In this document: piece by piece, positions 9,534 to 23,471 of the stretch
How positions within the stretch are numbered: position 1 is the stretch's first letter
How the letters are laid out: the number at the start of each line of letters is the position of its first letter
Assembly: GCA_017626305.1 (NCBI GenBank)
Contig: JAGAIW010000189.1
Span: 1-34,875 of the forward strand
From: Clostridia bacterium
Lineage (GTDB): Bacteria > Bacillota > Clostridia > Christensenellales > Borkfalkiaceae
Reading direction: 5' to 3'
Length of the DNA: 34,875 nt
Made by a program: the position numbers and the translations under genes
The notes under the pieces: model-generated
What the model was told of the DNA's origin: nothing
What the model saw: the letters and a program-made list of their open reading frames with translations, nothing else
Databases searched by the model: none

Positions 9534-9554
9534 AGCAAATCTCCTTTTTGTTTT

Positions 9555-9583
9555 ATTATAACAGGCATAAAAGGATTTGTCTT
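9555..9583 (-). promoter_or_regulatory. Promoter of the FAD oxidoreductase, likely activator-dependent
   Basis: Minus strand AAGACA (9578-9583), a poor -35, then a 17-base spacer and an extended TGTTATAAT -10 (hexamer 9555-9560). A TTGTACAAA box overlaps the -35 edge, the geometry of an AraC-type activated promoter. Confidence 0.65.
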
Positions 9584-9612
9584 GTACAAATGATATAAAA
9601 GAGTTGCACAAA
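9582..9612. promoter_or_regulatory. Direct repeat TTGYACAAA, candidate AraC-type operator
   Basis: TTGTACAAA (9582-9590) and TTGCACAAA (9604-9612) are in the same orientation, 22 bases apart, about two helical turns. This is the usual arrangement for AraC-family proteins, which have two HTH motifs per monomer. Each copy overlaps one -35 of the two divergent promoters. Confidence 0.6.
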
Positions 9613-9632
9613 CTATACTTTTTTGATATAAT
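9604..9632 (+). promoter_or_regulatory. Promoter of the PocR/AraC regulator gene
   Basis: TTGCAC (9604-9609), 17-base spacer, TATAAT (9627-9632). The ribosome site is AAAAAGG, about 8 bases before ATG 9663. The -35 is contained in the second TTGYACAAA box, suggesting autoregulation. Confidence 0.78.
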
Positions 9633-9662
9633 CATGTAAAAAGATACAAAAAGGTACGTGCT

Positions 9663-10517
9663 ATGCAAAATCTTCAAACTTTAATAGAACAATTTGAAAA
9701 AAAGCGTAAAATCCATATCAGCATTGTTGACTTGGACGGAATACTGAGTACGCCGATTACAAGCATTGATTTTAAAAACGCCTTACATTCAAAAGAATTT
9801 TGCAATATCGCCAAATCGACTGAAAGTGGCTATCGTACGTGTTTACGTTGTAAGCTGCTCGCCAACACCAAAGCTCTTAAAAGTATGACCCCTTTTGTGG
9901 GACAATGCAGCTATGGATTGCAGGAAGCCGCTGTTCCTGTCGTTATAGAGAAAAGCGTTGCAGCAATCGTATACGTGGGGAATGCCGTTGTCGATACCGA
10001 ACAAACGAAAGCGCGTATACAAAAAACCTGCGAGCGTACCAAGGTTTCTCCTGCCGCACTTTTTCAACAGCTTAACGAATGTGAATGTATTCATGATTTA
10101 AACGAGCTGTATCAAATCGGCGATATCGTTGCCGAATATTTAAAACTGTTATATGATCGCGCGAAAAAAAACAAAAAGCAATTGCATTGGCTGGTTTCTT
10201 CCATGAAACTTTATGCCGATAAACGGTTTTGCTATAATCTTTCGTTAAAAGAGCTTGCGATTACCTATCAAAAAAACGAACAGTATCTCGGTAGACTTTT
10301 CAAAAAGCATATGGGCGTCAGTTTTCACGAATACTGCATGCAACTACGAATGAACAAGGCGGAAAAATTATTATTACAAGAAACGGATAAAGTTATTGAT
10401 ATCGCTTTTGAATGTGGATTTAATAATATTTCCTATTTCAACAGAACGTTTCGAGAAAAATACGGCGTTTCCCCCATTGAATACCGCAAAAAAAGCACCG
10501 ACTACCAAACCAAGTAA
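9663..10517 (+). CDS. AraC-family regulator with N-terminal PocR sensory domain
   Basis: A 284-residue transcription factor. Residues about 3-165 resemble the PocR ligand-binding domain: an opening amphipathic helix with HISIVDLDG, the Cys pair in CLRCK, and the GQCSYGLQEAAVPV and YVGNAV strands. Residues about 180-280 are an AraC-type double HTH ending in the signature VIDIAFECGFNNISYFNRTF and REKYGVSPIEYRK. PocR domains bind small hydrocarbon-like ligands (PocR itself controls propanediol use). The ligand here is unknown. It is divergent from the FAD oxidoreductase, which is its probable target. Confidence 0.88.
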   Translation: MQNLQTLIEQFEKKRKIHISIVDLDGILSTPITSIDFKNALHSKEFCNIAKSTESGYRTCLRCKLLANTKALKSMTPFVGQCSYGLQEAAVPVVIEKSVAAIVYVGNAVVDTEQTKARIQKTCERTKVSPAALFQQLNECECIHDLNELYQIGDIVAEYLKLLYDRAKKNKKQLHWLVSSMKLYADKRFCYNLSLKELAITYQKNEQYLGRLFKKHMGVSFHEYCMQLRMNKAEKLLLQETDKVIDIAFECGFNNISYFNRTFREKYGVSPIEYRKKSTDYQTK

Positions 10518-10583: not shown

Positions 10584-10673
10584 TGGCGCAGAGAGTGGGA
10601 TTTGAACCCACGTATACATTCCTGCATAACACGATTTCGAATCGTGCGCGTTCAACCGCTCCGCCATCTCTGC
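10584..10673 (-). tRNA. tRNA-Ser(CGA)
   Basis: A 90-base class II tRNA. Acceptor stem GCAGAGA / TCTCTGC, discriminator G, genome-encoded CCA (10584-10586). Anticodon stem CACGA / TCGTG with loop TTCGAAA gives anticodon CGA (10637-10639), reading UCG. The long variable arm has a TATGC / GTATA stem, as expected for serine. The T-arm carries GGTTCAAATCC. Confidence 0.97.
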
Positions 10674-10715: not shown

Positions 10716-10737
10716 CTATTTTTTGCCTGATTTTATA

Positions 10738-10777
10738 AAAAAACTCTCGCCATATTACAATACAGCGAGAGTTTTTT
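10738..10777 (-). terminator. Terminator of the mdh-fum-hdr-flx-frd operon
   Basis: Arms AAAAAACTCTCGC (10738-10750) and GCGAGAGTTTTTT (10765-10777) surround a 14-base loop. The U-run follows on the minus transcript. It begins 3 bases after the stop of the exchanger gene at 10781. Confidence 0.88.
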
Positions 10778-10780
10778 CTT

Positions 10781-12139
10781 TTACATTAACGTAATCAAAA
10801 GCTGAGACGCGAGCACGACGAGTATCAATGCAATAGGATACGTCGACGCGTAAGCCGCAGCTACGTCGTCCGTTCCCGCCGTGGATATCAACGTACCAAG
10901 CGCGGGAGTAGACGTCATACCGCCCGTAATCGAACCAAGGCTGTTCAAAAGCGGCAGTTTCAAAACGTATTTACCAAGGACAAAGCCGACAAGCATGGGG
11001 AACACCGTCATGACTGCACCGCCGACAAAGCCCCAAATAACGATAGCTGCGCCCCCTGCGTTGGCAATTTCTTGCACCAAAGCAACGCCGCCTTCAAACC
11101 CTGCGCCAAGCAAGAACAATGCAAGTCCTAATTCACGCATTACTTTGAGCGTACCTTCCTTGACTTCTAAGGAAAGCTTGCCGAAATGTCCAAAGTGACC
11201 AAACACTAAGCACATGATCAGCACGCCGCCCGTCGTACCAAGCGAGAAACAAGGTCCACTATATCCTGCGCCCGTCAAGGGAATATTGATAGAACCAAGC
11301 AACAAACCTGCGATAATCGCAAGAGCGAACGGCATAAAGCCGAAGTCTTCGCAAGCAAAATATTTGGAATAATCTCTCTTTTCTTCCACGCCGCCAAGTC
11401 TTAACAGTTCGCGTTCTTTATTCATATCCGATTTCAAGAATTTCGGCATCAACTGTACAAACAATACAACGCCGACTACCCCGAACGGATACGCGATTGC
11501 GTGACCGAGCGTGATACGCGCAAGGTTTTCCGTCGCTGCGTCCTGTGCCGCCGAGAAACCAGGCGTAGACGTAAGCGCACCAGACAAAATTCCTGCCCAG
11601 TATTCAGGGCCGTATTCGGGCGTCAACAACGTGCAAAGCACCGCCACAAGCGTGCCCGATAAAATGATAACTGCACCAAGCAAAATATACGTTTTGAAGT
11701 TTTTCGCAAGGTTTTTAAAGAAGTTAGGTCCTGCGATAAAGCCTACTGCACCGACGAACATAATCAAACCGATATTTTGGATAGGTCCTTTCAAGTTTTT
11801 AACAACCGCAGCGTCCGTACCCGACATATAGAACGAACCAAGCAAGGGAACGTCCTTAAAATCGAGCGTGCAAAGCCAACCCAGTAAAATAGCCACAAGG
11901 AACACGCCTGCCGTGCCAAGCGATACGCCTTTAATATTGATACCGCCAAGTAAATAACCAAGCGCGAGAATGACGAACACCAGCGTAAACATAACGAACG
12001 TCGAACTAAATTTAAACGTACTCGACACGCCGTTTGCATTCATTGCGCTGATTGCGCACCATACGCCAACGCCGACTACGGCAACGATAGCAATCGCAAT
12101 CCAAAGCCATTTCAGGCTTTTTTTCTTTTCGTTCTCCAT
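10781..12139 (-). CDS. AspT/SucE-type (AAEx family) carboxylate exchanger or exporter
   Basis: A 452-residue integral membrane protein with about 11-12 hydrophobic segments in two repeated halves. Each half carries the AAEx duplication motif (GALTSTPGFSAAQDAA around residue 190; GGMTSTPALGTLIS around 410, then YASTYPIALILVVLA). The family includes AspT (aspartate:alanine exchange) and SucE (succinate export in Corynebacterium). The cytosolic loop between halves is only ~40 residues, with no TrkA_C domains, unlike AspT and YidE. As the last gene of the fumarate reductase operon it most likely exports succinate or exchanges it for aspartate, malate or fumarate. That substrate is inferred from context. 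Confidence 0.85.
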   Translation of the reverse strand: MENEKKKSLKWLWIAIAIVAVVGVGVWCAISAMNANGVSSTFKFSSTFVMFTLVFVILALGYLLGGINIKGVSLGTAGVFLVAILLGWLCTLDFKDVPLLGSFYMSGTDAAVVKNLKGPIQNIGLIMFVGAVGFIAGPNFFKNLAKNFKTYILLGAVIILSGTLVAVLCTLLTPEYGPEYWAGILSGALTSTPGFSAAQDAATENLARITLGHAIAYPFGVVGVVLFVQLMPKFLKSDMNKERELLRLGGVEEKRDYSKYFACEDFGFMPFALAIIAGLLLGSINIPLTGAGYSGPCFSLGTTGGVLIMCLVFGHFGHFGKLSLEVKEGTLKVMRELGLALFLLGAGFEGGVALVQEIANAGGAAIVIWGFVGGAVMTVFPMLVGFVLGKYVLKLPLLNSLGSITGGMTSTPALGTLISTAGTDDVAAAYASTYPIALILVVLASQLLITLM

Positions 12140-12164
12140 ATAAATCTCCTAATATACATACGGA

Positions 12165-12187
12165 AACGCACAGACGGGCTGTGCGTT
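12165..12187 (-). other. Intercistronic hairpin between frdA and the exchanger gene
   Basis: AACGCACAG / CTGTGCGTT, 9 perfect base pairs with a 5-base loop, in the only sizeable gap (76 bases) inside the operon. No U-tract follows, so it is not a good terminator. It may be a processing or stability element that sets the lower dose of the membrane protein. Confidence 0.5.
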
Positions 12188-12215
12188 GTCCGCTTATTTC
12201 ATCATTTTTCCGCTA

Positions 12216-13820
12216 TTAGTTTGCCTTTCTTCTATAATCGGGCAAAAGCTTGGGAGAAAGCGTTTCCGTTTGGATTCCTGCTTCGTCCAGTTCTTTTTCG
12301 AATTCGTCCACGTGTGCAAGCGTGAGTTCTTTGAGCTCTACACTCTTATACTTTTCACCTGCCTGTTGACCTGCGTTTCTACCGAATACGATAATATCCA
12401 ACAGCGAGTTACCCATCAATCTATTCGTACCGTGGATACCGCCGACCGCTTCGCCTGCAACGTACAGATTTTCAACGCACGTCATACCGTTTGCGCCGAT
12501 ATCCAAACCGCCGTTTTGATAATGCAGCGTGGGATAAATGAGAATGGGTTCTTTACGGATATCGATACCGTATTTACCGAACATACGGAGCATGGCAGGA
12601 ATACGTTTTTCGATAGTCCCTTCCCCATTGATGATATCAATGAGCGGCGTGTCCAGCCATACGCCTTCACCATCCGTCGTCTTGATACCGTTGCCGCGTT
12701 CTTTACATTCACGGATAATCGAAGACGCCGTAACGTCACGCGTTTCCAAAGAGTATACGAACGCTTCGCCGTTTTTATTAACGAGCTGCGCGCCAAGGGA
12801 ACGCACCTTTTCGGTTACGAGCGCACCGTAGATTTGCGTAGGTTCTGCCGCGCCCGTGGGATGGTATTGCAGCGTTTCGGGATAGAGAAGCTTTGCGCCT
12901 GCTCTGTACCCAAGCACAAGTCCGTCCGCCGTCGCGCCGTAGTGGTTGGACGTGGGGAAACCTTGATAGTGCAATCTACCAGCACCACCCGTTGCGATAA
13001 CGACCGTCTTTGCGCGAGCCACCATCACTTCTTTGGTTTCCATGTTCAAAAGCACAGCACCGGCAACCTTGCCGTCCGTATCTTTGATAAGTTCGATTGC
13101 AGCCGTGAAGTCCACTACCGTAATACCGCGGTTGAATACTTCGTCGCGGAGCGTACGCATGATTTCCGAGCCTGAATAGTCGCGGCAAGCGTGCATACGT
13201 TTTCTCGACGTACCGCCGCCGTGCGTGGTAACCATAGTACCGTCGGGCTCTTTATCGAACATAACGCCAAGGTTATTCAGCCACAAAATCGCTTCGGGAG
13301 CCTCGTTGACGAGCTTATACAAAAGCTCGGGTTTGTTCTTGAAGTGACCGCCGCCAAGCGCGTCCAAATAGTGTGTTGCGGGACTGTCGTTGGGTTTATC
13401 TGCCGCTTGGATACCGCCTTCTGCCATTGCCGTGTTTGCGTCGCCCAAACGAAGTTTGGTAACGATCATGACGTTTGCGCCGCGTTCATTCGCTTCGATT
13501 GCCGCGGACGAGCCTGCGCCGCCGCCACCGATAACGAGAACGTCTACGTCGTAGTCAATCTTCGTCAAATCGACGTTCATATCCTTTACGCGGGAATGAC
13601 CTTGCAGTAAATCGGCGAGCTCGTGCAGAACCTTTCCACCTTTATTTTTCCCAACTTTGAGTTCTTCATACGCAGAAGTGATATAATCAGGGTGAAAAGA
13701 CGCCAAAACCGCGTCTTTTTCTTCCGCCGTCATACGTACGTGCAGGTTTTCTCTACGGAAATCGCGCGATTCTTCTACTTTTTTCATAGATTCTAATTGT
13801 TCATCCGTATAATGATACAT
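12216..13820 (-). CDS. frdA: Fumarate reductase/succinate dehydrogenase-type flavoprotein subunit
   Basis: A 534-residue FAD subunit that would reduce fumarate to succinate in the cytoplasm. The FAD Rossmann motif VLVIGGGGAGSSAA starts near residue 94. The active-site region has H320 in YHPTG, the catalytic-type Arg361-Asp362 pair, His433 in TLHYQNGG and GIHGTNRLMGNSLLD (461-475). A typical SdhA/FrdA has its FAD motif near residue 10. Here about 90 extra N-terminal residues (including a FHPDY stretch and a GPNKG-like VGKNKGG) precede it and may dock partner subunits. Start ATG 13820 follows GGAG. Eleven bases separate it from frdB. No membrane-anchor subunit is encoded nearby. It is closest in character to soluble FrdA/TfrA proteins. 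Confidence 0.92.
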   Translation of the reverse strand: MYHYTDEQLESMKKVEESRDFRRENLHVRMTAEEKDAVLASFHPDYITSAYEELKVGKNKGGKVLHELADLLQGHSRVKDMNVDLTKIDYDVDVLVIGGGGAGSSAAIEANERGANVMIVTKLRLGDANTAMAEGGIQAADKPNDSPATHYLDALGGGHFKNKPELLYKLVNEAPEAILWLNNLGVMFDKEPDGTMVTTHGGGTSRKRMHACRDYSGSEIMRTLRDEVFNRGITVVDFTAAIELIKDTDGKVAGAVLLNMETKEVMVARAKTVVIATGGAGRLHYQGFPTSNHYGATADGLVLGYRAGAKLLYPETLQYHPTGAAEPTQIYGALVTEKVRSLGAQLVNKNGEAFVYSLETRDVTASSIIRECKERGNGIKTTDGEGVWLDTPLIDIINGEGTIEKRIPAMLRMFGKYGIDIRKEPILIYPTLHYQNGGLDIGANGMTCVENLYVAGEAVGGIHGTNRLMGNSLLDIIVFGRNAGQQAGEKYKSVELKELTLAHVDEFEKELDEAGIQTETLSPKLLPDYRRKAN

Positions 13821-13831
13821 GGCGATTCTCC

Positions 13832-14506
13832 TTATTTTTCGATTTCTCTATGGTTATAGAGATTTTTCTGTTCTTCAAGCGGCGTATTCATAATCGCTTC
13901 CAAAGCCGCTTTGCAATCGCCCGCGTCGATTTCGGCTACGCGGTTGATAAGGTGTTCCGTCTTAGGCGCAAGATATTTACCCGTCAAACGGCGCGTAAGC
14001 AACGCAACCTGCGGATGGGATATGCCTGCGGGACAACGGGAAGAACAAACGCCGCACATAACACAGTCAAAGCTTTCTTCCGCTGCTTTTTCGTATTCGC
14101 CGCGTTGCGCGTATGCGATATACTGCATAACGTTGAGTTCTTGCGTACAGCTCTTGGTGCAAGCGTTACAGCCGATACACGAATAAATTTCGGGATACAG
14201 CTGCATCATGATTTGCTGCGTAGGTTTGATTTGATTGATATCGTATACCTGTTTTACAAGCGGGAAGAAGGGCAACGTTGCTACGTACATACCTTCTTCT
14301 ACCTGTTGTTGACAGGCAAGGCAGGTTTTAAGTTCTTGCTGACCTTTAATGCGGTAAATCGTAGCGCAAGCGCCGCAAAAACCGTTTCTGCAACCGCAAC
14401 CGCGGACAAGCTGATAACCTGCATATTCCATTGCTTTCATAATCGTCAAACTTTCCGGCACTTGATAGCGTTTACCGAAAAGAAATACGTTTACCATTTT
14501 TTCCAT
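13832..14506 (-). CDS. frdB: Fumarate reductase iron-sulfur subunit (FrdB/SdhB/TfrB-like)
   Basis: A 224-residue electron-transfer subunit between the donor module and FrdA. The N-terminal [2Fe-2S] domain has GCGCRNGFCGAC (C37, C39, C44, C47) and CLAC (62-65). The C-terminal domain has two CxxCxxCxxxC motifs, CIGCNACTKSC (110-120) and CVMCGVCSSRCPAG (148-160). This is an extra full four-Cys set compared with SdhB, whose second site binds a [3Fe-4S]. The methanogen TfrB carries an HdrB-like CCG domain fused at its C-terminus. Here that part is absent, but a separate HdrB is encoded in the same operon. The GGAG site is rather far (14 bases) from ATG 14506. Confidence 0.92.
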   Translation of the reverse strand: MEKMVNVFLFGKRYQVPESLTIMKAMEYAGYQLVRGCGCRNGFCGACATIYRIKGQQELKTCLACQQQVEEGMYVATLPFFPLVKQVYDINQIKPTQQIMMQLYPEIYSCIGCNACTKSCTQELNVMQYIAYAQRGEYEKAAEESFDCVMCGVCSSRCPAGISHPQVALLTRRLTGKYLAPKTEHLINRVAEIDAGDCKAALEAIMNTPLEEQKNLYNHREIEK

Positions 14507-14524
14507 GTGTTTCTATTGTTCTCC

Positions 14525-15352
14525 TTAATATTCGTCGGGCAATTCATCCAGTTCCGTCATGCGGAATACGGGGCCGTCTTTACAAACGAATTTATCCCCT
14601 ACGTTACATCTGTCGCATTTGCCGACGCCGCACTTCATACGAAGTTCTAACGTCGTATACACGCGCGATTTATCAAAGCCAAGCTCTAACAATCCCGCTA
14701 AGGTGAATTTAATCATGATAGGCGGACCGCAAAGTACTGCCGTCATGTTGGGGTCAAGACCTAATTCTTTTACGTATGCAGGTACGAAACCGACGTGTCC
14801 GTCCCAGCCGTCTTGCGGTCTATCAATCGTCAGATATACTTCCGTGTTGGGTTCGTTCATCCATTCCGTTTGAATTTCTTCGATATCCACAAGGTCGTCC
14901 TTACTTCTCGCGCCGTATACGATAACCACTTTGCCGTAGTTATTACGGTAATGGCGAACGTAGTTGATAACGCTACGCAAAGGCGCAAGACCGATACCGC
15001 CTGCGATAAAGAGCAGGTCTTTACCCTTGAAGTCTTCTTCTACGGGGAAGTTTTTGCCGTAAGGACCGCGAACGGTGATTTGTTGACCAACTTCCATGGC
15101 GTGGAGCACTTCGGTAACGCAACCGCATTTTTTAATGGAAAATTCCATATAGTCCATATTCGTAGGCGACGACGTGATAGAGAACATACATTCCCCTACG
15201 CCGGGAACGGAAACCATAGCGCATTGTCCAGGCATGTGTTGGAACAGCTTTTTGCCGTCCGTGCCTACAACGCGGAAGGTTTTTACGTCAGGCGTATCCT
15301 TACGGATATCGGTGATGACGCCAACTTTCGGAATGAGAGTTTCTTCAATCAT
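14525..15352 (-). CDS. flxA: FlxA-like FAD/NAD(P)H oxidoreductase subunit
   Basis: A 275-residue ferredoxin-NADP reductase-fold protein, related to sulfhydrogenase gamma, AsrB and FlxA. It would oxidise NAD(P)H and pass electrons to Fe-S partners. The FAD-binding region includes MFSITSSP (56-63). The NAD(P) domain includes LLFIAGGIGLAPLRSV (113-128) and VLCGPPIM. The C-terminal [2Fe-2S] site uses C241, C246, C249 and C257. I place the start at 15352, where ATG follows GGGAGGT at proper spacing. That gives an 8-base overlap with the upstream gene, whose last codons contain the ribosome site. An alternative start at 15388 has no such site. Confidence 0.9.
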   Translation of the reverse strand: MIEETLIPKVGVITDIRKDTPDVKTFRVVGTDGKKLFQHMPGQCAMVSVPGVGECMFSITSSPTNMDYMEFSIKKCGCVTEVLHAMEVGQQITVRGPYGKNFPVEEDFKGKDLLFIAGGIGLAPLRSVINYVRHYRNNYGKVVIVYGARSKDDLVDIEEIQTEWMNEPNTEVYLTIDRPQDGWDGHVGFVPAYVKELGLDPNMTAVLCGPPIMIKFTLAGLLELGFDKSRVYTTLELRMKCGVGKCDRCNVGDKFVCKDGPVFRMTELDELPDEY

Positions 15353-16382
15353 TATTCTTACCTCCCAAGGTTTTGATGACTTTGACAATATTCAAGCGTT
15401 GGGGACATTTATTGACGCAACGCCCACAGCCTACGCACGAATACATGCCGTCGTTTTGCGAAGGATAGTACACGAGCTTGTGCATAAAGCGTTGACGGAA
15501 ACGCTGCATTTGGCTATTACGGCTATTCCCGTGCGCCATGAGCGTGAAATCCGCGTACATACAGGAATCCCAACAACGGTAACGAATGACGCCGTCGCGC
15601 GTTTTGAAATCGCGAATGTCAAAGCATTGACAGGTGGGACATACGAACGTACAAGTCCCACAGCCCAAGCAAGCTTCGCTCATTTTTTCCCATTCGGGAG
15701 CGTCGAAGAGTTCGTTTAAGTTTTCGGGTTGGAAACGGGACAAATCCAAGTTAGCATACGGCAAGCTTTCCAAAACGACTTTGGTCGTTTCCTGTTGCGC
15801 CGCTACTTCTTCTTCACCACCCTTTTCAAACAGCTCTTCTACCTGCGCGGTAAGGCTTTCACCCTTCTCGGTATTCGCTTGCCAGTACAAGTAATTTTCG
15901 TCAAGCCACGTGGTTACGTCGCCTTGGGGGGCAGTTGCGTCTATGCCGAATACACCGCAAAAACAGCTTTCTTCGGGCTTAGAGCAAGCCAACGTAACAA
16001 TCGTGGTGTTTTCTCTTCTGTTTTGATAATACGTATCTACGGGGTCAGCAAGGAATACTTTATCCAGCACTTCAATCGCTTTATAATCGCAAGCCTTCAC
16101 GCCGAACAGTACAAACGGTTTTCTTTCGTCAAAGCTTTCACGAACGTCGATAACTTCGATATTTTTGCCTTCCGTTTTAAATTTCATCATGTTTTCCGTT
16201 TGCGGGAAAAACATATTTTTAGGGGATTTTACCGTTTTCAACGTTTCCAAAGAAACTTCTTTGCCTTCGCTCCATACGCAATAGTTGACTTCACCCGCCT
16301 TTTTTACGGGCAAGAACAAACCTTGCGTTTGCGCGATTTTTGCATACAAATCGTTTAATCTTTCTTTTGCAATCTTTAACAT
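15345..16382 (-). CDS. flxB: FlxB-like iron-sulfur protein (sulfhydrogenase beta/AsrA type)
   Basis: A 345-residue 4Fe-4S dicluster protein. The N-terminal half contains FGVKACDYKAIEVLDKVF and a Cys set around CSKPEESCFCG. The C-terminal ferredoxin domain carries CLGCGTCTFVCPTCQCFD, a RYRCWDSC element and CVGCGRCVNKCP. This matches the beta subunit of sulfhydrogenases, AsrA and FlxB of the Desulfovibrio FlxABCD-HdrABC complex. It relays electrons between the NAD(P)H-oxidising subunit and the rest. It overlaps its neighbours on both sides (1 base and 8 bases), so stoichiometric co-translation is expected. Confidence 0.87.
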   Translation of the reverse strand: MLKIAKERLNDLYAKIAQTQGLFLPVKKAGEVNYCVWSEGKEVSLETLKTVKSPKNMFFPQTENMMKFKTEGKNIEVIDVRESFDERKPFVLFGVKACDYKAIEVLDKVFLADPVDTYYQNRRENTTIVTLACSKPEESCFCGVFGIDATAPQGDVTTWLDENYLYWQANTEKGESLTAQVEELFEKGGEEEVAAQQETTKVVLESLPYANLDLSRFQPENLNELFDAPEWEKMSEACLGCGTCTFVCPTCQCFDIRDFKTRDGVIRYRCWDSCMYADFTLMAHGNSRNSQMQRFRQRFMHKLVYYPSQNDGMYSCVGCGRCVNKCPQRLNIVKVIKTLGGKNND

Positions 16383-17359
16383 TATTTTGCCTCCCCGTTT
16401 ACAGCGTCGTTGGGTTCGATATCGCTTTCCGTATAAGACGTAAGCGGCGTTTTGCCTTCCGAAGTTTCCCCTGCTTGATATTCGCCGTAGTTGGTGTCGA
16501 TATCTTTAATAAACTTTCTATTCAAAAGGTGCAAAGGAATGTTTTGGGGACACACGCGCGAACATTCGCCGCAGTCCGTACAACGTCCCGATACGTGGAA
16601 TGCACGAATAACGTGGAAAAGCTGTTCTTCAAATTTATCGTCGTTTGCTTTTGCCGCGATACCCGAATTCGGGTTATCAAATACGCATTTTACGCACGAG
16701 CATGCAGGGCATACGTTACGGCAAGCGTTACAACGGATACACTTGGAAAGCTGTTCTCTCCAAAAAGCAAAACGTTCGTCGGGCGTCATATTTTCCAGCT
16801 TAACGACTTCCGCAAAGCGGTCTACTTCACGCGCGGGACGCTGATGAAGAATAATTTCTTCGTCCTTGACTTGGTGCGTTTTATTGCAGGTCGCGCATTT
16901 GGTAAGTACGACGTCGGGCTTATACAACGTTACGTTGCCGTACGGCGAAGAAACGTTTACGTCCTTATCCACTACTTCTACGCCCGTCACTACGGATACG
17001 CCTGCCGCTTTTATTTTTTCAATATCCAGCTTAGCCAGACATTCCACCGCGATAACATAGATTTTTTCTCTATCGATACGGTGTTCTTTAACGAGCTGGT
17101 TAAAGCTGTACGTATCGCAAGGCTTTAAAAATACAGCCGTTTTGCCTTCTTTTTTAGCAATTTGGATAAGATACTTGGAAAGGTTTGCTCCGCAAAAATA
17201 ATCGTATACAAACTCGTTTAATTCGTCTACCGTTTCAAAGGTGGCAGGAGAAGGGTCAAAGCAAAAATCCCCTTTCTTCCAACCGACGACGCGGGCAACT
17301 TCACCGCTTTCCAGCAACGCTTTCGCGCGTTCTTTCATTTTCAATTCTACTTCTTTCAT
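16382..17359 (-). CDS. flxC: FlxC-like iron-sulfur protein
   Basis: A 325-residue Fe-S protein. The N-terminal ~180 residues resemble coenzyme F420 hydrogenase beta-type folds (VFLKPCDTYSFNQLV, IYVIAVECLA, then KCATCNKTHQV). The ferredoxin-like C-terminal part has CIRCNACRNVCPACSCVKC and CTDCGECSRVCPQNIP. It fits the FlxC position of FlxABCD-HdrABC clusters and is paralogous in outline to the next gene. It starts one base after flxD ends. The assignment to FlxC rests on motif layout plus gene order, so the exact family name is less certain than the Fe-S content. Confidence 0.8.
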   Translation of the reverse strand: MKEVELKMKERAKALLESGEVARVVGWKKGDFCFDPSPATFETVDELNEFVYDYFCGANLSKYLIQIAKKEGKTAVFLKPCDTYSFNQLVKEHRIDREKIYVIAVECLAKLDIEKIKAAGVSVVTGVEVVDKDVNVSSPYGNVTLYKPDVVLTKCATCNKTHQVKDEEIILHQRPAREVDRFAEVVKLENMTPDERFAFWREQLSKCIRCNACRNVCPACSCVKCVFDNPNSGIAAKANDDKFEEQLFHVIRAFHVSGRCTDCGECSRVCPQNIPLHLLNRKFIKDIDTNYGEYQAGETSEGKTPLTSYTESDIEPNDAVNGEAK

Positions 17360-17360
17360 A

Positions 17361-17816
17361 TTATTCGCCCTCCTTTACGCGAAGGTCGGTCAAGCGTTTG
17401 TTTTCGCCTAAATCGGTTACCGTCTTAACGAAATCGTTCATAACGGCGGAGAAACGTGCGCCTTCTGCGGCGGATACCCATTCCAAACGGGTACGCTCCT
17501 TTTCAATACCGAGATAATTCAAAAAACTGTACAAGAGCGCCATTCTTCTTCTCGTATAGTAGTTACCCGTTACGTAGTGACAATCCCCGGGATGGCAACC
17601 GCAAAGGATGACACCGTCCGCGCCTTGTTGAAAGGCTTTGAGTACGAACGAAGGATTGACGCGGCACGAACAGGGTACGCGAATGATTTTAACGTTTGCC
17701 GGATACGTAAGACGGCTAGAACCCGCAAGGTCCGCACCTGCATACGAACACCAGTTACAGCAAAACGCAACGATATTGGGAACAAATTCTTTCTTTTCCG
17801 TGGTTACTTCTTGCAT
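17361..17816 (-). CDS. flxD: MvhD/FlxD-type delta subunit linking Flx to HdrA
   Basis: A 151-residue member of the methyl-viologen-reducing hydrogenase delta subunit family. MvhD/FlxD proteins carry a [2Fe-2S] cluster and hand electrons to HdrA in hydrogenase-Hdr and Flx-Hdr complexes. Visible ligands are CCNWCSYAGAD (residues ~19-29), VPCSCRVNP and ILCGCHPGDCHY. The length matches stand-alone members. The first 13 bases overlap the end of hdrA, so it is translationally coupled to its docking partner. Confidence 0.93.
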   Translation of the reverse strand: MQEVTTEKKEFVPNIVAFCCNWCSYAGADLAGSSRLTYPANVKIIRVPCSCRVNPSFVLKAFQQGADGVILCGCHPGDCHYVTGNYYTRRRMALLYSFLNYLGIEKERTRLEWVSAAEGARFSAVMNDFVKTVTDLGENKRLTDLRVKEGE

Positions 17817-19795
17817 ATTGCTTCTACCTCCGACATGATTTGTTTGGAGCTAAATCCCTTCAAGTCCATTGCGCCCGAAGGACAGGTTACCGTACAAGCA
17901 CCGCAGCCTTGACATACCGCAGGGTTGACGGACGCTACGCGACGAACTTCCGTTTTGCCGCCGCCGATACGGAATTCCTTATCCACGTACGTGATTGCGC
18001 CGTATGCGCAAACGTTGGCGCATTGACTGCAACCGTTACACATACTTTCGTCGGGAGTTGCTACGCAAGGGTTGGTCTTTAACTTATCCTTTACAAGCAA
18101 GCCGATAACCTTTGCCGCGCAAGCAGACGCCTGCGAAACCGTTTCGGGAATATCCTTAGGACCTTGACATACGCCTGCTAAATATACGCCTGCCGTGGGG
18201 CTTTCCACGGGACGAAGCTTGGCGTGCGATTCGGTAAGGAAGTTGTTCGTATCGATACTTGCGGTGAGCAAGGTAGCCACCTTTCTAACCGAAGGTTCGG
18301 GTTCGATTGCCGCCGCTAAAACGACAAGGTCGGATTCAATCGTTACCTGTTCGTTATCGATAAGGTTAGAACCTTGAACCATGAGTTTACCGTTTTCGTT
18401 GTATACCTTTCCGACCATACCTTTGATATAGTCTACGCCGTACTGTTCTACTGCGCGGCGGAAGAATTCGTCGTAGTTTTTCCCAGGGGTACGCACGTCG
18501 ATATAGAATACGTGTACTTCGGTGTCGGGATACTTTTCACGAATGAGCATGGCGTGTTTTGCCGTATACATACAGCAAATCTTAGAGCAGTACGGTTTTC
18601 CGCAACCGCTGGAATCACGCGAGCCGACGCATTGAATAAAGGTGATTACCTTCGGGTGCTTACCGTCGGAAGGACGGAGCAATACGCCGTTGGTAGGTCC
18701 TGCTGCGTTCATTAAACGTTCTAATTCCAAGGACGTAACGACGTCTTTATTATCGTTATAGCCGTATTCGTTAAAAGCATCTAAATCGATAGGTTTATAT
18801 CCCGTTGCAACGACGATTGCGCCGTATTGACGTTCGACGAACGTATCCTTTTGTTCGTAATCAATAGCGCCTACGCCGCAGAATTTTTGGCAGATACCGC
18901 ATTTGCCCGTTTTGAGCTTGATGCATTGTTCGGGGTCGATTACCGCTACGTTGGGGATTGCCTGCGCAAACGGAATGTAAATAGCAGGACGGGTATTCAA
19001 ATTCATATTGAAAGCGTTAAGACCTTTCTTGGAAGGACATTTTTCCATACAAACCTTACAGCCCGTACACTTGCTTTCGTCTACGTATCTTGCCTTACGG
19101 CGAATTTTTACGCTGAAATTACCAACGAAACCTTTCACGTCTTCGACTTCGGAATACGTGAGAATGTCGATTTTTTCGTGCTGCGCGCAGTCTACCATTT
19201 TGGGCGTGAGAATACAAGCGGAGCAATCGAGCGTGGGGAACGTTTTATCCAGCTGTGCCATTCTGCCGCCGATGGTTGCGTTCTTTTCCACAATGTCCAC
19301 TTCAAAGCCTGCGTCTGCGATATCCAAAGCCGCTTGGATACCCGCTATACCGCCGCCGATTACGAGCGCACGCTTGATAACGGGGCTTTCCCCTGCCATC
19401 AAAGGTGCGTTGAGTTTTACCTTTGCAATTGCCGTACGGACAAGAATGATTGCCTTTTCGGTGGCTTCGTCCATGTCCTTATGTATCCACGAACAATGTT
19501 CACGGATATTTGCAATTTCCACCATGTAGGGGTTCAAGCCTGCCGCTTCTGCCGTTTTACGGAAGGTGGCTTCGTGCATTCTCGGCGAACAAGCACCAAC
19601 GACGATACCCGTCAAGTTGTGTTCCTTGATCGCTTGCTTAATCAGCTGTTGTCCGTTTTCCGAACACATATACTGATAGTTAGCGGAGTAGACAACGCCC
19701 GGTTCGTTTTTCATTGCTTCCGCAACTTTTACAACGTCTACCGTCGCTGAAATATTACTGCCGCACCAACAGATAAAAACACCTATTCTTTGCAT
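17804..19795 (-). CDS. hdrA: Heterodisulfide reductase subunit A, flavin bifurcation centre
   Basis: A 663-residue flavoprotein. By family the single FAD of HdrA splits electron pairs between a high-potential and a low-potential branch. The order of parts is typical. An N-terminal domain has FICWCG and CSEN. The FAD motif ALVIGGGIAGIQAAL runs from about 143, with CSACILTPKM (191-200). An inserted ferredoxin has CTGCKVCMEKC (243-253) and CIKLKTGKCGICQKFC (291-306). A thioredoxin-reductase-like remainder follows. The C-terminal ferredoxin has CNGCSQCANVC and CQGCGACTVTC near 586 and 628, the usual ferredoxin-reducing end. It overlaps flxD by 13 bases. No hydrogenase or F420 subunit accompanies it, so NAD(P)H via FlxA is the likely donor. 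Confidence 0.95.
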   Translation of the reverse strand: MQRIGVFICWCGSNISATVDVVKVAEAMKNEPGVVYSANYQYMCSENGQQLIKQAIKEHNLTGIVVGACSPRMHEATFRKTAEAAGLNPYMVEIANIREHCSWIHKDMDEATEKAIILVRTAIAKVKLNAPLMAGESPVIKRALVIGGGIAGIQAALDIADAGFEVDIVEKNATIGGRMAQLDKTFPTLDCSACILTPKMVDCAQHEKIDILTYSEVEDVKGFVGNFSVKIRRKARYVDESKCTGCKVCMEKCPSKKGLNAFNMNLNTRPAIYIPFAQAIPNVAVIDPEQCIKLKTGKCGICQKFCGVGAIDYEQKDTFVERQYGAIVVATGYKPIDLDAFNEYGYNDNKDVVTSLELERLMNAAGPTNGVLLRPSDGKHPKVITFIQCVGSRDSSGCGKPYCSKICCMYTAKHAMLIREKYPDTEVHVFYIDVRTPGKNYDEFFRRAVEQYGVDYIKGMVGKVYNENGKLMVQGSNLIDNEQVTIESDLVVLAAAIEPEPSVRKVATLLTASIDTNNFLTESHAKLRPVESPTAGVYLAGVCQGPKDIPETVSQASACAAKVIGLLVKDKLKTNPCVATPDESMCNGCSQCANVCAYGAITYVDKEFRIGGGKTEVRRVASVNPAVCQGCGACTVTCPSGAMDLKGFSSKQIMSEVEAICKK

Positions 19796-19828
19796 TTTAT
19801 TTACTCTCTTTTTTTAGATTTTTCCTAA

Positions 19829-20215
19829 TTATTTGTTGTACTTTCTGTACGCGCTTACCAAAAGTTGCTGGGGAATGTATTCGTCCACGATAGGCGGAAT
19901 ATCTTCCGCTTTGATGCCGTTTGCGCCCTGTGCGCGCACTACCGTATCACGAACGGCTTCCACTACCGCCGCAGGCGCTACGCCGCGCGGACAGCGTTCT
20001 ACGCAAGCCATGCACGAAAGACAGTTCCAAATGGCGTTGCAAGCAAGCAGCTCGTCAATTTTACCTTGTCCAAGCATGGATACGAACTGATGGGGTTTGA
20101 TATCCATTTCCTTAAAAGCAGGACATCTACCCGAGCATTTGCCGCATTTCATGCACTTTCTTACGTCCGTGCCTGAAAGTCTGTTGAGATTTTCAATACG
20201 TTCGGTTTTCGTCAT
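19829..20215 (-). CDS. hdrC: Heterodisulfide reductase subunit C
   Basis: A 128-residue ferredoxin-like protein with two complete [4Fe-4S] motifs, CMKCGKCSGRCPAF (residues ~21-34) and CLSCMACVERCPRG (~66-79). Short stand-alone HdrC has this form. It carries electrons from HdrA to HdrB. Its start overlaps the hdrB stop (4 bases), the usual hdrBC coupling. There are no transmembrane segments, so this is the soluble HdrABC type rather than HdrDE. Confidence 0.93.
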   Translation of the reverse strand: MTKTERIENLNRLSGTDVRKCMKCGKCSGRCPAFKEMDIKPHQFVSMLGQGKIDELLACNAIWNCLSCMACVERCPRGVAPAAVVEAVRDTVVRAQGANGIKAEDIPPIVDEYIPQQLLVSAYRKYNK

Positions 20216-20991
20216 GCTTTCACCCCCAAAGCTTCCGCCAAAAGTTCGGTGAAGTATTTTACGGGAAGGATATTATCGCCGTTGACCTGCAAGTTATACA
20301 AACACAACGGGCAAGCGGTAATAACTTCTTCCGCACCTTTTTCTTTTGCGCTGGTAAGTACTTTACGGCTCTTCTGTTTAGGAAGTTCCGCATTTTTCAA
20401 GGATACGTACGCGCCGCAACATTCATTGCGGAAAGGATACGTTACGGGCGTGCCGCCGATTGCCTTGATAAAGTCTTCAATAATCGTGGGATTTTCGGGA
20501 TTATCAAACGCCATAACGCCGCTGGGACGGAGCAACAAACAACCGTAATACGCGCCAACCTTGCGGTTGATGGGATTGACGACTGCTTTTTTGATATTGT
20601 CAAAACCCACTACGTTTTTCAGCATTTCGAGATAGTGCAAAACTTCCGTTTCCCCTTTATAGGGGGCATCTAACTTCAAGTAGTTATTTGCTCGGAAACA
20701 AATATCCCCGTCCGCTTTCATATCTTCGTTAGTACGCTTAATCACGTTATGACACGCGGAGCACAGCGTCAACAATTTACCGCCGTGATGCTTGGCATAA
20801 TCAAGTGCGCGAACCGCCGAGAGCTTGGTTGCGATTTCATCCGTACCCGTAGGATACACCGCACCGCAACATTGCCAGTTTTCAATTTCTTCCATTTCTA
20901 CGCCCAAAGCCGTAGCGCAAAGACGTGCCGTTACGTCTAATTCTTTCGCTTTCGTTTTGAGCGTACAGCCGGGATAATAACTGATTTTCAT
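20212..20991 (-). CDS. hdrB: Heterodisulfide reductase subunit B with two intact CCG domains
   Basis: A 259-residue CCG-domain protein. Each repeat should hold a non-cubane [4Fe-4S] cluster that reduces a disulfide in methanogen HdrB. Both ligand sets are complete: C9, C41, C42, C77, C80, and C151, C191, C192, C227, C230. The same domain occurs in the C-terminus of methanogen TfrB and in SdhE of type-E succinate:quinone reductases, where it works beside FrdAB-like subunits. With frdAB in the same operon, its electron acceptor may be FrdB rather than a free disulfide. That acceptor is an inference. ATG 20991 follows AAAGGTAG. Confidence 0.94.
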   Translation of the reverse strand: MKISYYPGCTLKTKAKELDVTARLCATALGVEMEEIENWQCCGAVYPTGTDEIATKLSAVRALDYAKHHGGKLLTLCSACHNVIKRTNEDMKADGDICFRANNYLKLDAPYKGETEVLHYLEMLKNVVGFDNIKKAVVNPINRKVGAYYGCLLLRPSGVMAFDNPENPTIIEDFIKAIGGTPVTYPFRNECCGAYVSLKNAELPKQKSRKVLTSAKEKGAEEVITACPLCLYNLQVNGDNILPVKYFTELLAEALGVKA

Positions 20992-21013
20992 TTCTATACG
21001 CTACCTTTTATGA

Positions 21014-22390
21014 TTATTTTTGGGGATATGCCATTTCTTCGGGACGGAAGACTTCGTCAAATTTTTCCGCCGTCAAGAATCCCAAAGCTACGCATGCTTC
21101 TTTCAAGGAAATGTTTTCCTTATACGCTTTCTTTGCCGTCTTCGCCGCGTTTTCATAACCGATATACGGATTGAGCGCGGTAACAAGCATCAACGAATTA
21201 TACAGATTATGTTTCATTTTTTCCTTGTTCGCCTTGATACCCGTTACGCAGTTGCTTTCAAACGACGTAATGCCGTCGGCGAGCAATCTTGCCGATTGCA
21301 GGAAGTTATAAATAATGACGGGCATGAATACGTTGAGTTCAAAATTCCCCTGCGACGCGCCCATACCGACCGCAACGTCGTTTGCCATAACCTGTACGGC
21401 AACCATGGTGAGCGATTCGCATTGCGTGGGGTTGACTTTCCCCGGCATGATAGACGAACCGGGTTCGTTTTCGGGAATAAAGATTTCCCCAAGACCGTCG
21501 CGCGGACCGCTTGCCAGCCAACGTACGTCGTTGGCAATCTTCATTAAGTTACAAGCAAGCGCTTTTAACGCGCCGTGGGCAAACACGAGCTCGTCCTTGG
21601 ACGTAAGCGCGTGATATTTGTTTTCCGCCGTAACGAATTTCTTACCCGTCAAAGCGGATACCTGCGCCGCTACTTCTTCGGCAAAGCCTTTGGGGGCGTT
21701 CAAGCCCGTACCGACCGCCGTGCCGCCAAGCGCGAGTTCTTTCAATCCGTCCAAAGCAAGCGTAAGCTGCGCTTTGGTTTTTTCCACCATGTTTCTCCAA
21801 CCGCTAATCTCTTGCGAAAAAGCGATAGGAACGGCGTCTTGCAAGTGCGTTCTACCGCTCTTTACAATGCCTTCGTTTTCCTTTTCCAAACGAACGAGCG
21901 TTGCGATAAGCTTATCAATAGCAGGGAACAGCTTATCTTCGATAGCAATCACCGCCGCAATATGCATTGCCGTGGGGAAGGTATCGTTGGAGCTTTGACT
22001 CTTATTGATATCGTCGTTGGGGTGGAGAAGTTTTTTACCTGCGATTTCGTTACCGCGGTTGGCGATAACTTCGTTGGCGTTCATGTTCGATTGCGTGCCG
22101 CTGCCCGTTTGCCATACGACGAGCGGGAAGTGGGCGTTCAGCGAACCCGAAATAACTTCGTCGCAAGCCGCGCAAATGGCGTCTTTCTTTTCTTCGGGCA
22201 ATTTACCGAGTTTGCAGTTGGCAAGCGCCGCCGCTTTTTTCAAAATGCCAAATGCGTGCGTGATTTCACGGGGCATAACTTCGTCGCCGATACGGAAATT
22301 TTGGTAACTTCTTTGCGTTTGCGCCGCCCAGTATCTGTCGGCGGGGACTTGCATTTCCCCCATCGTGTCTTTTTCAATACGGTATTCCAT
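21014..22390 (-). CDS. fumC: Class II fumarate hydratase
   Basis: A 458-residue cytoplasmic, Fe-S-free fumarase converting malate to fumarate. The signature [15 protein letters not shown] (311-325) has the fumarase-type T-Q-C-E. Also present are [13 protein letters not shown] (96-108), [11 protein letters not shown] (131-141) and [10 protein letters not shown] (179-188). It has full length for the class. It sits 15 bases after the malate dehydrogenase-like gene and 22 bases before hdrB, so it provides the middle step of oxaloacetate to succinate. It is distinct from AspA at 6771 despite the shared fold. Confidence 0.96.
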
Positions 22391-22405
22391 GTTTCTTTTC
22401 TCCCG

Positions 22406-23356
22406 TTAAATTTCAATTTGGGCGATAACGCCTTTCAATACTTCCGCGCTATGACGCATTTTTTCCATTTCTTCGTCCGAAAGTCTAGGCGTAAGCGTGG
22501 TTACGATACCATCCTTACCGATAGCGCAAAGCGTGGAAAGAGCAACGTCGGAAATGCCGTATTCCCCTTCGAGTACCGTCGATACGGGCAAAATGGTATA
22601 CGCGCTGGAATAAATGCTGTTGACGATTTGCGTTACGCAAGCAGCAATACCGTAGAAGGTTGCGCCCTTACCTGCGATAATTTGACCGCCCGATTTTTTC
22701 ACGTATTCTTCTACTTCTTCGTGCGTGTACGGGGTAACCGTCAATTTTTCTCTATCCGTAAGCGTTTCTTCGTATTCTCCCAAAGGAATACCCGAAATGT
22801 CCGCCGTCGACCATGCAACGAACGAGCTGTCGCCGTGTTCCCCAAGCACGTACGCGTGTACCTGCTTTTGGTTGACCGAATACAGCTCGGAAAGACGGGT
22901 GCGCAAACGAATACTATCCAAGGTAGTACCCGTACCGATAACGCGGTTTCTGGGCACGCCCGTGATTTTACAGAAGACGTAGGTTAAAACGTCTACGGGA
23001 TTTGCAACGAATAAATACAATGCGTCAGGCGCATATTGAACGATTTGCGGAGCAATACTCTTCAAAATATTGACGTTGGTTTGCGTCAAATCAATACGGG
23101 ACTGACCAGGCTTTCTACCTACGCCCGAAGTGATGATGACGATATCCGAATCGGTTGCGTCTTCATACGTTCCGCAGTAAATTTTTACAGGGGAAAGATA
23201 AGGCGTCGATTGACGAATATCCAAAGCTTCGCCCTTCGCCTTTTCTACGTTGACGTCGATAAGAACGATCTCTGCAACCGAACCCGTAGCCACCAACGTA
23301 TACGCAACGGTTGCGCCTACTGAACCTGCGCCGATAATTGTAACTTTGTTTTTCAT
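22406..23356 (-). CDS. mdh: LDH-fold malate dehydrogenase (Arg at the specificity position)
   Basis: A 316-residue NAD-dependent 2-hydroxyacid dehydrogenase. Overall it looks like L-lactate dehydrogenase: IIGAGSVGATVAYTL (7-21), D34 for NAD, GTTLDSIRLR (143-152) and LGEHGDSSFVAWS (171-183, catalytic H174). The substrate loop reads GVGRKPGQSR (78-87). Arg81 therefore occupies the position of Gln102 in LDH numbering. Arg there is the hallmark of malate dehydrogenases, and the classic Q102R change turns Bacillus LDH into an MDH. As the first gene before fumC and frdAB, it most likely reduces oxaloacetate to malate. An automated annotation would probably call it ldh. ATG follows GGAG. Confidence 0.88.
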   Translation of the reverse strand: MKNKVTIIGAGSVGATVAYTLVATGSVAEIVLIDVNVEKAKGEALDIRQSTPYLSPVKIYCGTYEDATDSDIVIITSGVGRKPGQSRIDLTQTNVNILKSIAPQIVQYAPDALYLFVANPVDVLTYVFCKITGVPRNRVIGTGTTLDSIRLRTRLSELYSVNQKQVHAYVLGEHGDSSFVAWSTADISGIPLGEYEETLTDREKLTVTPYTHEEVEEYVKKSGGQIIAGKGATFYGIAACVTQIVNSIYSSAYTILPVSTVLEGEYGISDVALSTLCAIGKDGIVTTLTPRLSDEEMEKMRHSAEVLKGVIAQIEI

Positions 23357-23374
23357 AAATGTGTTCTCCGTTTT

Positions 23375-23390
23375 TTATAATCGTTTACAA
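23375..23390. promoter_or_regulatory. Possible Rex-like site in the mdh operon leader
   Basis: TTATAA-TCGT-TTACAA is an imperfect inverted repeat (one mismatch) between the promoter and the mdh start. It loosely resembles the TTGTTAA-N4-TTAACAA box of the NADH-sensing repressor Rex, which controls fermentation genes in many Clostridia. The match is weak. Confidence 0.25.
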
Positions 23391-23442
23391 ATTATTTTTT
23401 ACTTTGCATAAAAAGGACAAAATGCCCCACTCATACATAATC

Positions 23443-23471
23443 ATTATAACACAAAATCAGCAGAAGTACAA
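23443..23471 (-). promoter_or_regulatory. Promoter of the mdh-fumC-hdrBCA-flxDCBA-frdBA operon
   Basis: Minus strand TTGTAC (23466-23471), 17-base spacer, extended TGTTATAAT -10 (hexamer 23443-23448). The predicted start is near 23436, giving an 80-base leader. No other good promoter was seen inside the tightly packed genes downstream. Confidence 0.8.

Follow-up and report, generated by a model that had tools for sequence, protein, structure and literature searches.

Operons that combine Flx-Hdr proteins with a fumarate reductase are the closest described relatives of the locus studied here, a 12-gene operon in a 34,875-nucleotide stretch of DNA from a Clostridia bacterium, probably a gut inhabitant, of the family Borkfalkiaceae (GenBank assembly GCA_017626305.1, contig JAGAIW010000189.1; the whole stretch is called the window). 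The 'succinate operon' of Pseudoclostridium thermosuccinogenes (CDQ83_RS03365-RS03315) comprises fumarase, Flx-Hdr, two fumarate reductase genes and a possible succinate transporter, and the 2020 paper describing it (PMC7282089) cites a 2019 preprint (10.20944/preprints201912.0288.v1) for the proposal. In its passages on the operon, the fumarate reductase was assumed, not measured, to be linked to ferredoxin reduction, and expression of the operon rose about 4-fold when CO2 was limiting, though the change was not significant for all subunits. In Desulfovibrio vulgaris, FlxABCD-HdrABC is an NADH-linked Hdr with DsrC as the proposed acceptor (Ramos 2015, as cited in later papers). Tubeworm symbionts and Thioflavicoccus carry a tfrAB-flxABCD-hdrABC-korABCD cluster, and electron transfer from Flx-Hdr to TfrAB has been proposed for the tubeworm symbionts; the expression pattern of tfrAB differed from that of the rest of the cluster (PMC6315080, PMC11636981). 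The HdrA2B2C2 complex of Methanosarcina acetivorans is reported to bifurcate electrons, with F420H2 as donor and CoM-S-S-CoB as acceptor (PMC5296606).

Compared by gene content only, the fumarase, hdrABC, flxABCD, frdBA and transporter genes of P. thermosuccinogenes run likewise in the window. However, mdh is not named as part of that operon, and that species has Rnf and Ech, whereas the operon in the window includes mdh and the genome of the window gave no match for Rnf or Ech. The seven subunit types of the D. vulgaris system recur in the window by family match, with no Desulfovibrio sequence compared; DsrC, its proposed acceptor, has no match in the genome here, and FrdBA is attached. As in the window, the tubeworm symbionts have fumarate reductase genes among Flx-Hdr genes, with direct electron shuttling proposed, but in a reductive tricarboxylic acid cycle setting with korABCD, Rnf and pntAB, and with an enzyme of the TfrAB type. 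In that thiol:fumarate reductase the CCG domain is fused in TfrB, whereas the FrdB of the window has none and HdrB is separate. The HdrA2 model spans HdrA plus FlxD of the window, but the Methanosarcina complex differs in its F420H2 donor and its CoM-S-S-CoB acceptor.

The operon is therefore another member of the published, still unproven Flx-Hdr-Frd 'succinate operon' kind, and is not new. No biochemical proof of such a complex was found in the literature searched, which covered few subscription papers and no bioRxiv preprints. The original prediction, made from the DNA alone, knew of no characterised complex of this composition; this stands for the biochemistry, whereas composition and hypothesis had already been published (PMC7282089). 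New here are the pairing of FrdBA with Hdr-Flx in three gene orders, which fall in distinct parts of the FrdA tree, together with nine of 20 hand-picked loci in which no Hdr gene was found, and a genome in which SdhC, UbiA, DsrC, Rnf and the large subunit of complex I/Ech all went unmatched.

With somewhat better than even confidence, we read the operon as encoding a soluble Hdr-Flx-FrdBA complex, a quinone-free NADH:fumarate reductase that is probably bifurcating, within a route from oxaloacetate to succinate. Mdh would convert oxaloacetate to malate and FumC malate to fumarate, which the soluble nine-protein assembly would reduce; the exchanger would then export succinate. Electrons from NADH would enter at FlxA and reach the HdrA flavin by way of FlxB, FlxC and FlxD. 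From there, one electron would take the high-potential branch over HdrC and HdrB to FrdB, FrdA and fumarate, and the other would run through the ferredoxin domains of HdrA to ferredoxin. The net reaction would be 2 NADH + fumarate + oxidised ferredoxin to succinate + reduced ferredoxin, with neither quinone nor membrane anchor required. We infer the physical contact of HdrBC with FrdB, NADH as the donor and ferredoxin as the second product; the sequence would fit ferredoxin being either made or used.

Conservation of the operon and gene orders around FrdBA

An alignment of 21 FrdA rows, used to scan the GTDB species genomes, gave at least 591 pattern matches and 583 relatives. The best-scoring 80 of the 583 were examined, and these sample one side of the FrdA family. 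Judged by their titles, nearly all are bins from metagenomes, under labels such as Clostridia, Oscillospiraceae or Lachnospiraceae; many of the titles name ruminant or deer gut and some chicken. Of the best 80, 60 loci extend 7.5 kb or more upstream of frdA, and 59 of these keep the order hdrB-hdrC-hdrA-flxD-flxC-flxB-flxA-frdB-frdA; the sixtieth (L124) also has the nine core genes and differs only by an HdrA match in two pieces. The synteny that the original prediction had proposed to look for was thus found, and two more gene orders were found besides. Among the 57 loci that reach 9.9 kb or further upstream, fumC directly precedes hdrB in 46 and the mdh-fumC pair is present in 37; the exchanger is the next gene past frdA in 49 of the 62 with at least 2.5 kb downstream. 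One operon (L152) lies on a contig labelled uncultured Treponema, with a FrdA 74% identical to the query; the label is likely a binning or label error.

The genome searches start with a prefilter that can lose weak candidates. In a phylum-wide sample, with at most three candidates scored per genome, FrdA was matched at E up to 1e-90 in 39 of 398 genomes, the own genome included. A FrdA orthologue was found in 32 of the 37 genomes of the genus (own included; two short pieces and one split gene among the 32) and in five of 24 genomes from other families of the order, one of the five with an inner stop. Six further genomes of the order gave FrdA-like matches at 30-36% identity only.

We also compared 20 hand-picked FrdBA loci, mostly one per family. 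FrdB adjoins FrdA in 19 of them, and a complete Hdr-Flx set lies beside FrdBA in seven. The gene order of the window occurs in L075, L077, L078 and L079, all from its own taxonomic order; a second order, hdrCBA-flxDCBA-frdBA, occurs in L073, and a third, frdBA-hdrBCA-flxDCBA, in L060 and L066, both of them beyond the clade with the conserved nine-gene order. In L076 the contig end cuts the locus within flxB. HdrABC and FlxD are present in L065 and L074, where FlxA and FlxB were not found, and L064 has HdrBC only. Since the linkage is conserved in three gene orders, we regard Hdr-Flx as tied to FrdBA. A second FrdA copy, without an adjoining FrdB, was seen in genome G151 (L071, 3845-5482).

A FrdA tree of 34 rows was built from the 21-row alignment plus 13 loci picked from the 80; L079 has a TAG inside its FrdA frame and is left out of the alignment. 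Four changes of the label 'Hdr-Flx' are needed on this tree; well-supported branches force three or more of them, and none of 500 shuffles was as low, a figure helped by near-copies. Two short loci carry the label on FlxA alone or on FlxA plus a piece of FlxB (L029, L076), and losses could explain part of the distribution. The result supports FrdBA as a movable fumarate reductase core that was repeatedly tied to Hdr modules.

Subunits, energy balance and alternative readings

The residue counts below are restricted to homologues whose alignment spans 90% of the query. FrdA keeps H320, R361, H433 and R467, which we take to correspond to the fumarate-site His/Arg residues, in 80 of 80 loci and in 20 of 20 loci of a second set; the catalytic His/Arg residues of a complex II (SQR/QFR) flavoprotein appear to be present, which supports the predicted fumarate reductase. 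An Asn is aligned with the FAD-linking His of E. coli SdhA, presumably the site of the covalent FAD link. The protein has an N-terminal extension of about 90 residues with invariant positions (21 aligned sequences, 20 genomes), and the Pfam search gave no Succ_DH_flav_C match. Its best NCBIfam matches are TfrA, SdhA and NadB, and all 25 among the matches listed fall below cut-off. L-aspartate oxidase for NAD synthesis was considered and rejected: the NadB models are below cut-off and the operon and the FrdB partner oppose it, as do the neighbours of FrdBA elsewhere, namely fumarase AB and malic enzyme (L061), succinate-CoA ligase (L070, L074) and pyruvate carboxylase (L068). In FrdB, C39, C44, C47, C65 and both 4Fe-4S Cys sets are kept throughout the two sets of homologues (75 of 75 and 19 of 19). 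Its best PDB matches, RnfC and SdhB, are weak, and no CCG domain was matched in the Pfam search. The third cluster of SdhB is, we assume, 3Fe-4S, and FrdB, with two 4Fe-4S motifs by sequence, differs there.

HdrA matches the HdrA of the solved methanogen complex 5odc with 695 bits over residues 3-660, and its 27 chosen Cys are kept in 56 of 59 homologues, the remaining three deviating at C101 only. Against the NF040770 HdrA2 model it scores 800 bits, under the cut-off of 1100 set for the fused protein; FlxD covers positions 640-774 of this model, and the two proteins jointly span HdrA2. Ten Cys of HdrB are kept in 60 of 60 homologues, and HdrB aligns with solved HdrB chains; the eight Cys of HdrC are kept in 58 of 58. 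What marks a bifurcating HdrABC, an HdrA with a FAD site and cluster Cys and an HdrB with two CCG motifs, is present. FlxA and FlxB are entry subunits of the NAD(P)H type and resemble the gamma and beta subunits of sulfhydrogenase (9nez_C, 9nez_B). Among solved chains, FlxC comes nearest to beta subunits of formate dehydrogenase, for example 7bkb_E, whose structure entry contains HdrA as well; donor swapping on the HdrA-MvhD part would thus be a known theme. Bifurcation is favoured by the joint match of HdrA and FlxD to HdrA2, whose Methanosarcina complex is reported to bifurcate (PMC5296606).

Bifurcation onto fumarate is energetically feasible: with assumed potentials of -280 to -320 mV for NADH and -420 to -500 mV for ferredoxin, the computed balance is -18 to -49 kJ per fumarate. 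The expectation that the drop from NADH to fumarate would pay for ferredoxin reduction therefore holds. The genome of the window (2.55 Mb, 95% complete, 189 contigs, so that absences are not absolute) has one FrdA match (E up to 1e-30), one HdrA match (E up to 1e-5) and one PFOR-type match. Its one [FeFe] hydrogenase is of the three-gene HydABC type (HydA/NuoF/NuoE-like; other NiFe hydrogenases were not searched), and HydA passes the NCBIfam model 'NADH-dependent [FeFe] hydrogenase, group A6'. A search for rnf or hydrogenase genes, which had been suggested, thus returned the hydrogenase and no rnf. As the original prediction held, there is no sign of a quinone or of a membrane-bound reductase: neither Sdh_cyt (the SdhC anchor; E. 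coli-type FrdC/FrdD models were not run) nor UbiA was matched in the genome, and a complex II-like enzyme with anchor and quinone was rejected on these grounds. A DsrC-type acceptor, which according to the same prediction would have spoken against fumarate as acceptor, was likewise set aside, with no DsrC match in the genome. Among 31 genomes, Sdh_cyt and DsrC gave a single match each (G016 and G015, both below cut-off and with a stop inside), and UbiA a single match over cut-off in G042, from another family.

Several results weigh against a bifurcating complex of Hdr-Flx and FrdBA. Nine of the 20 picked loci yielded no Hdr gene in the vicinity of FrdBA. Seven of the nine were followed further downstream without an Hdr match, L068 to the contig end only; the absence is less sure in L068, in L061 (which ends 2.2 kb downstream) and in L072 (which ends 1.3 kb upstream). 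FrdBA can probably work without Hdr, and we therefore read it as a movable core. In addition, the own genome gave no match for Rnf or for Complex1_49kDa, a family that we take to cover Ech as well as complex I, and the 37 genus genomes yielded no Rnf. Because these pumps were not matched, the extra reduced ferredoxin would have no known ion pump in this genome, and the original claim that energy is conserved from fumarate is not borne out. Finally, a bifurcating enzyme fits awkwardly into a simple electron balance. If a hydrogenase using NADH and ferredoxin 1:1 is the sole sink (case A), three PFL turnovers per succinate are required with the bifurcating enzyme, one with a plain NADH enzyme and none with a confurcating one, and a ferredoxin-only fumarate reductase cannot balance. 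With a hydrogenase that accepts NADH alone, as its NCBIfam name has it (case B), the balance is more awkward still: under the bifurcating enzyme the PFOR ferredoxin finds no sink, unless PFL supplies all of the acetyl-CoA. This sugar balance omits ethanol, lactate, Nfn and biosynthesis, and PFL and Nfn were not searched in the genome.

These results bear most directly on confurcation, in which NADH and reduced ferredoxin would jointly reduce fumarate and the complex would act as ferredoxin sink where Rnf and Ech are lacking. It agrees with the lack of a match for Rnf and for the complex I/Ech large subunit and with the split in Rnf between the genus and 17 of the 24 other genomes of the order; a PFOR-type gene is available as ferredoxin source, and in case A 1:1 confurcation is the only one of the four modes tried that allows a formate-free balance from glucose to acetate, succinate and H2. 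However, confurcation wastes energy, the supporting balance has the omissions just named, and three of the five other-family genomes with a FrdA orthologue do have Rnf. We consider it a fair rival and not the favourite; it is unlikely on present evidence. A wider version holds that, in gut bacteria without Rnf, quinone or Ech, a confurcating Hdr-Flx-FrdBA makes succinate formation a ferredoxin outlet, the reverse of the published proposal, and that FrdBA is more broadly a plug-in core wired to varied donor modules in Bacillota; this we find slightly less probable.

Two loci, from two families, have other neighbours. In L063 (8462-14016), FrdBA lies by an FMN_bind/4Fe-4S protein and a multihaem NapC/cytochrome c7-like protein; in L070 (6178-9794), by a homologous FMN-type protein (by clustering) and a succinate-CoA ligase. 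Proteins without a family match are also among these neighbours, which are perhaps another donor for the same FrdBA core.

Of the remaining alternatives, transfer from HdrB to FrdBA by a small thiol/disulfide carrier would give the same reaction without direct contact, as in thiol:fumarate reductase. Intact CCG motifs are needed for disulfide chemistry, and both are intact in HdrB and in all 60 homologues; however, the HdrB clusters could merely conduct electrons, no DsrC was matched, and FrdB lacks the CCG domain of the TfrB model, whose positions 262-485 are matched by HdrB instead, which leaves a carrier doubtful. To a similarly small degree we credit a plain NADH:fumarate reductase without bifurcation, with HdrA a mere electron conductor. 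Another Hdr complex, HdrABCMvhDMetFV of Moorella, does not reduce ferredoxin, as cited in PMC8578096, but HdrA here retains the tested cluster ligands, and a span of about 350 mV would be lost. That Hdr-Flx and FrdBA are merely co-transcribed with separate partners is very improbable: it could account for the nine loci that yielded no Hdr gene, but not readily for the strict order in 59 of 60 loci among the best 80, the linkage in three gene orders, or a genome with no other HdrA or FrdA match at the thresholds used.

Operon layout and neighbouring genes

The 12 genes lie on the minus strand from 23356 down to 10781, in the order mdh-fumC-hdrB-hdrC-hdrA-flxD-flxC-flxB-flxA-frdB-frdA-exchanger (Table 1), and each was confirmed at its predicted place. 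The intergenic distances, in bases and in this order, are 15, 22, -4, 33, -13, 1, -1, -44, 18, 11 and 76. All are thus 33 or less save the 76 ahead of the exchanger, as predicted, and the five overlaps or touching ends reported before are overlaps in four cases and a 1-base gap in the fifth. The -44 overlap of flxB and flxA depends on the TTG start of flxA, and a later start would make it smaller.

Table 1. Features of the operon region, in positions of the window
Feature	Positions	Strand	Evidence
mdh, LDH-like malate dehydrogenase, 316 aa	22406..23356	-	PF00056/PF02866
fumC, class II fumarase, 458 aa	21014..22390	-	TIGR00979 730 bits, cut-off 665
hdrB, 259 aa, two intact CCG motifs	20212..20991	-	PF02754; motifs at 9-80, 151-230
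hdrC, 128 aa	19829..20215	-	two 4Fe-4S motifs
hdrA, 663 aa, FAD + 4Fe-4S clusters	17804..19795	-	NF040770 HdrA2 match; 5odc HdrA match
flxD, 151 aa, MvhD/FlpD family	17361..17816	-	PF02662
flxC, 325 aa	16382..17359	-	two 4Fe-4S motifs
flxB, 345 aa, sulfhydrogenase-beta/AsrA-like	15345..16382	-	PF17179; 9nez_B
flxA, 287 aa, FAD/NAD(P)H-binding entry subunit, TTG start	14525..15388	-	PF00175, PF00970, PF10418; 9nez_C
frdB, 224 aa, Fer2 (2Fe-2S) domain + two 4Fe-4S motifs	13832..14506	-	domain + motif matches
frdA, 534 aa, fumarate reductase flavoprotein	12216..13820	-	PF00890 (FAD_binding_2) at 93-473
Asp-Al_Ex family exchanger, 452 aa	10781..12139	-	PF06826
intrinsic terminator 3' of exchanger	10737..10778	-	hairpin + U run, -23.5 kcal/mol, z -8.1
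candidate -10 box TATAAT, 5' of mdh	23443..23448	-	perfect -10, -35 weak

Of the single promoter and terminator described originally, the terminator stands, with a hairpin z-score computed against 200 shuffles; a simple terminator scan of the window does not list this hairpin. A single promoter is plausible, judged by the candidate -10 box. The promoter scan upstream of mdh on the minus strand gave only 9-of-12 matches, at positions other than TATAAT, and over the window it gave 33 promoter-like sites against 20.1 expected in shuffles, which is no evidence of function.

The mdh product passes two NCBIfam models, L-lactate dehydrogenase (340 bits, cut-off 304) and a malate dehydrogenase subfamily (290 bits, cut-off 283). 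A lactate dehydrogenase, raised by the first score, was set aside on the Arg at the specificity position (R81), kept in 46 of 46 compared homologues; we take an Arg at this position of LDH-like enzymes to mark malate dehydrogenase. The last gene probably encodes a C4-dicarboxylate exporter/exchanger, with the substrate deduced from context.

A tRNA-Ser (CGA) lies directly past the operon terminator (10584-10673, minus strand), and a divergent AraC/PocR-type regulator gene adjoins the operon region (9663-10517, plus strand). Just outside the operon are an aspartase-like gene and a FAD_oxidored gene at 6771-8147 and 8274-9677, both on the minus strand. The aspartase-like product passes the aspartate ammonia-lyase subfamily model and fails the aspA equivalog cut-off; aspartate may be a second source of fumarate.

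Significance for fumarate reduction in gut Clostridia

If the published proposal is true, fumarate would drive ferredoxin reduction in solution, without quinone or membrane. The arrangement is seen in many bins labelled Clostridia; by their titles, a fair share of these come from the gut of ruminants, deer and chickens, a habitat in which succinate and H2 serve as exchange metabolites. With no Rnf match in the genus of the window, the fate of that ferredoxin becomes a clean, testable question.

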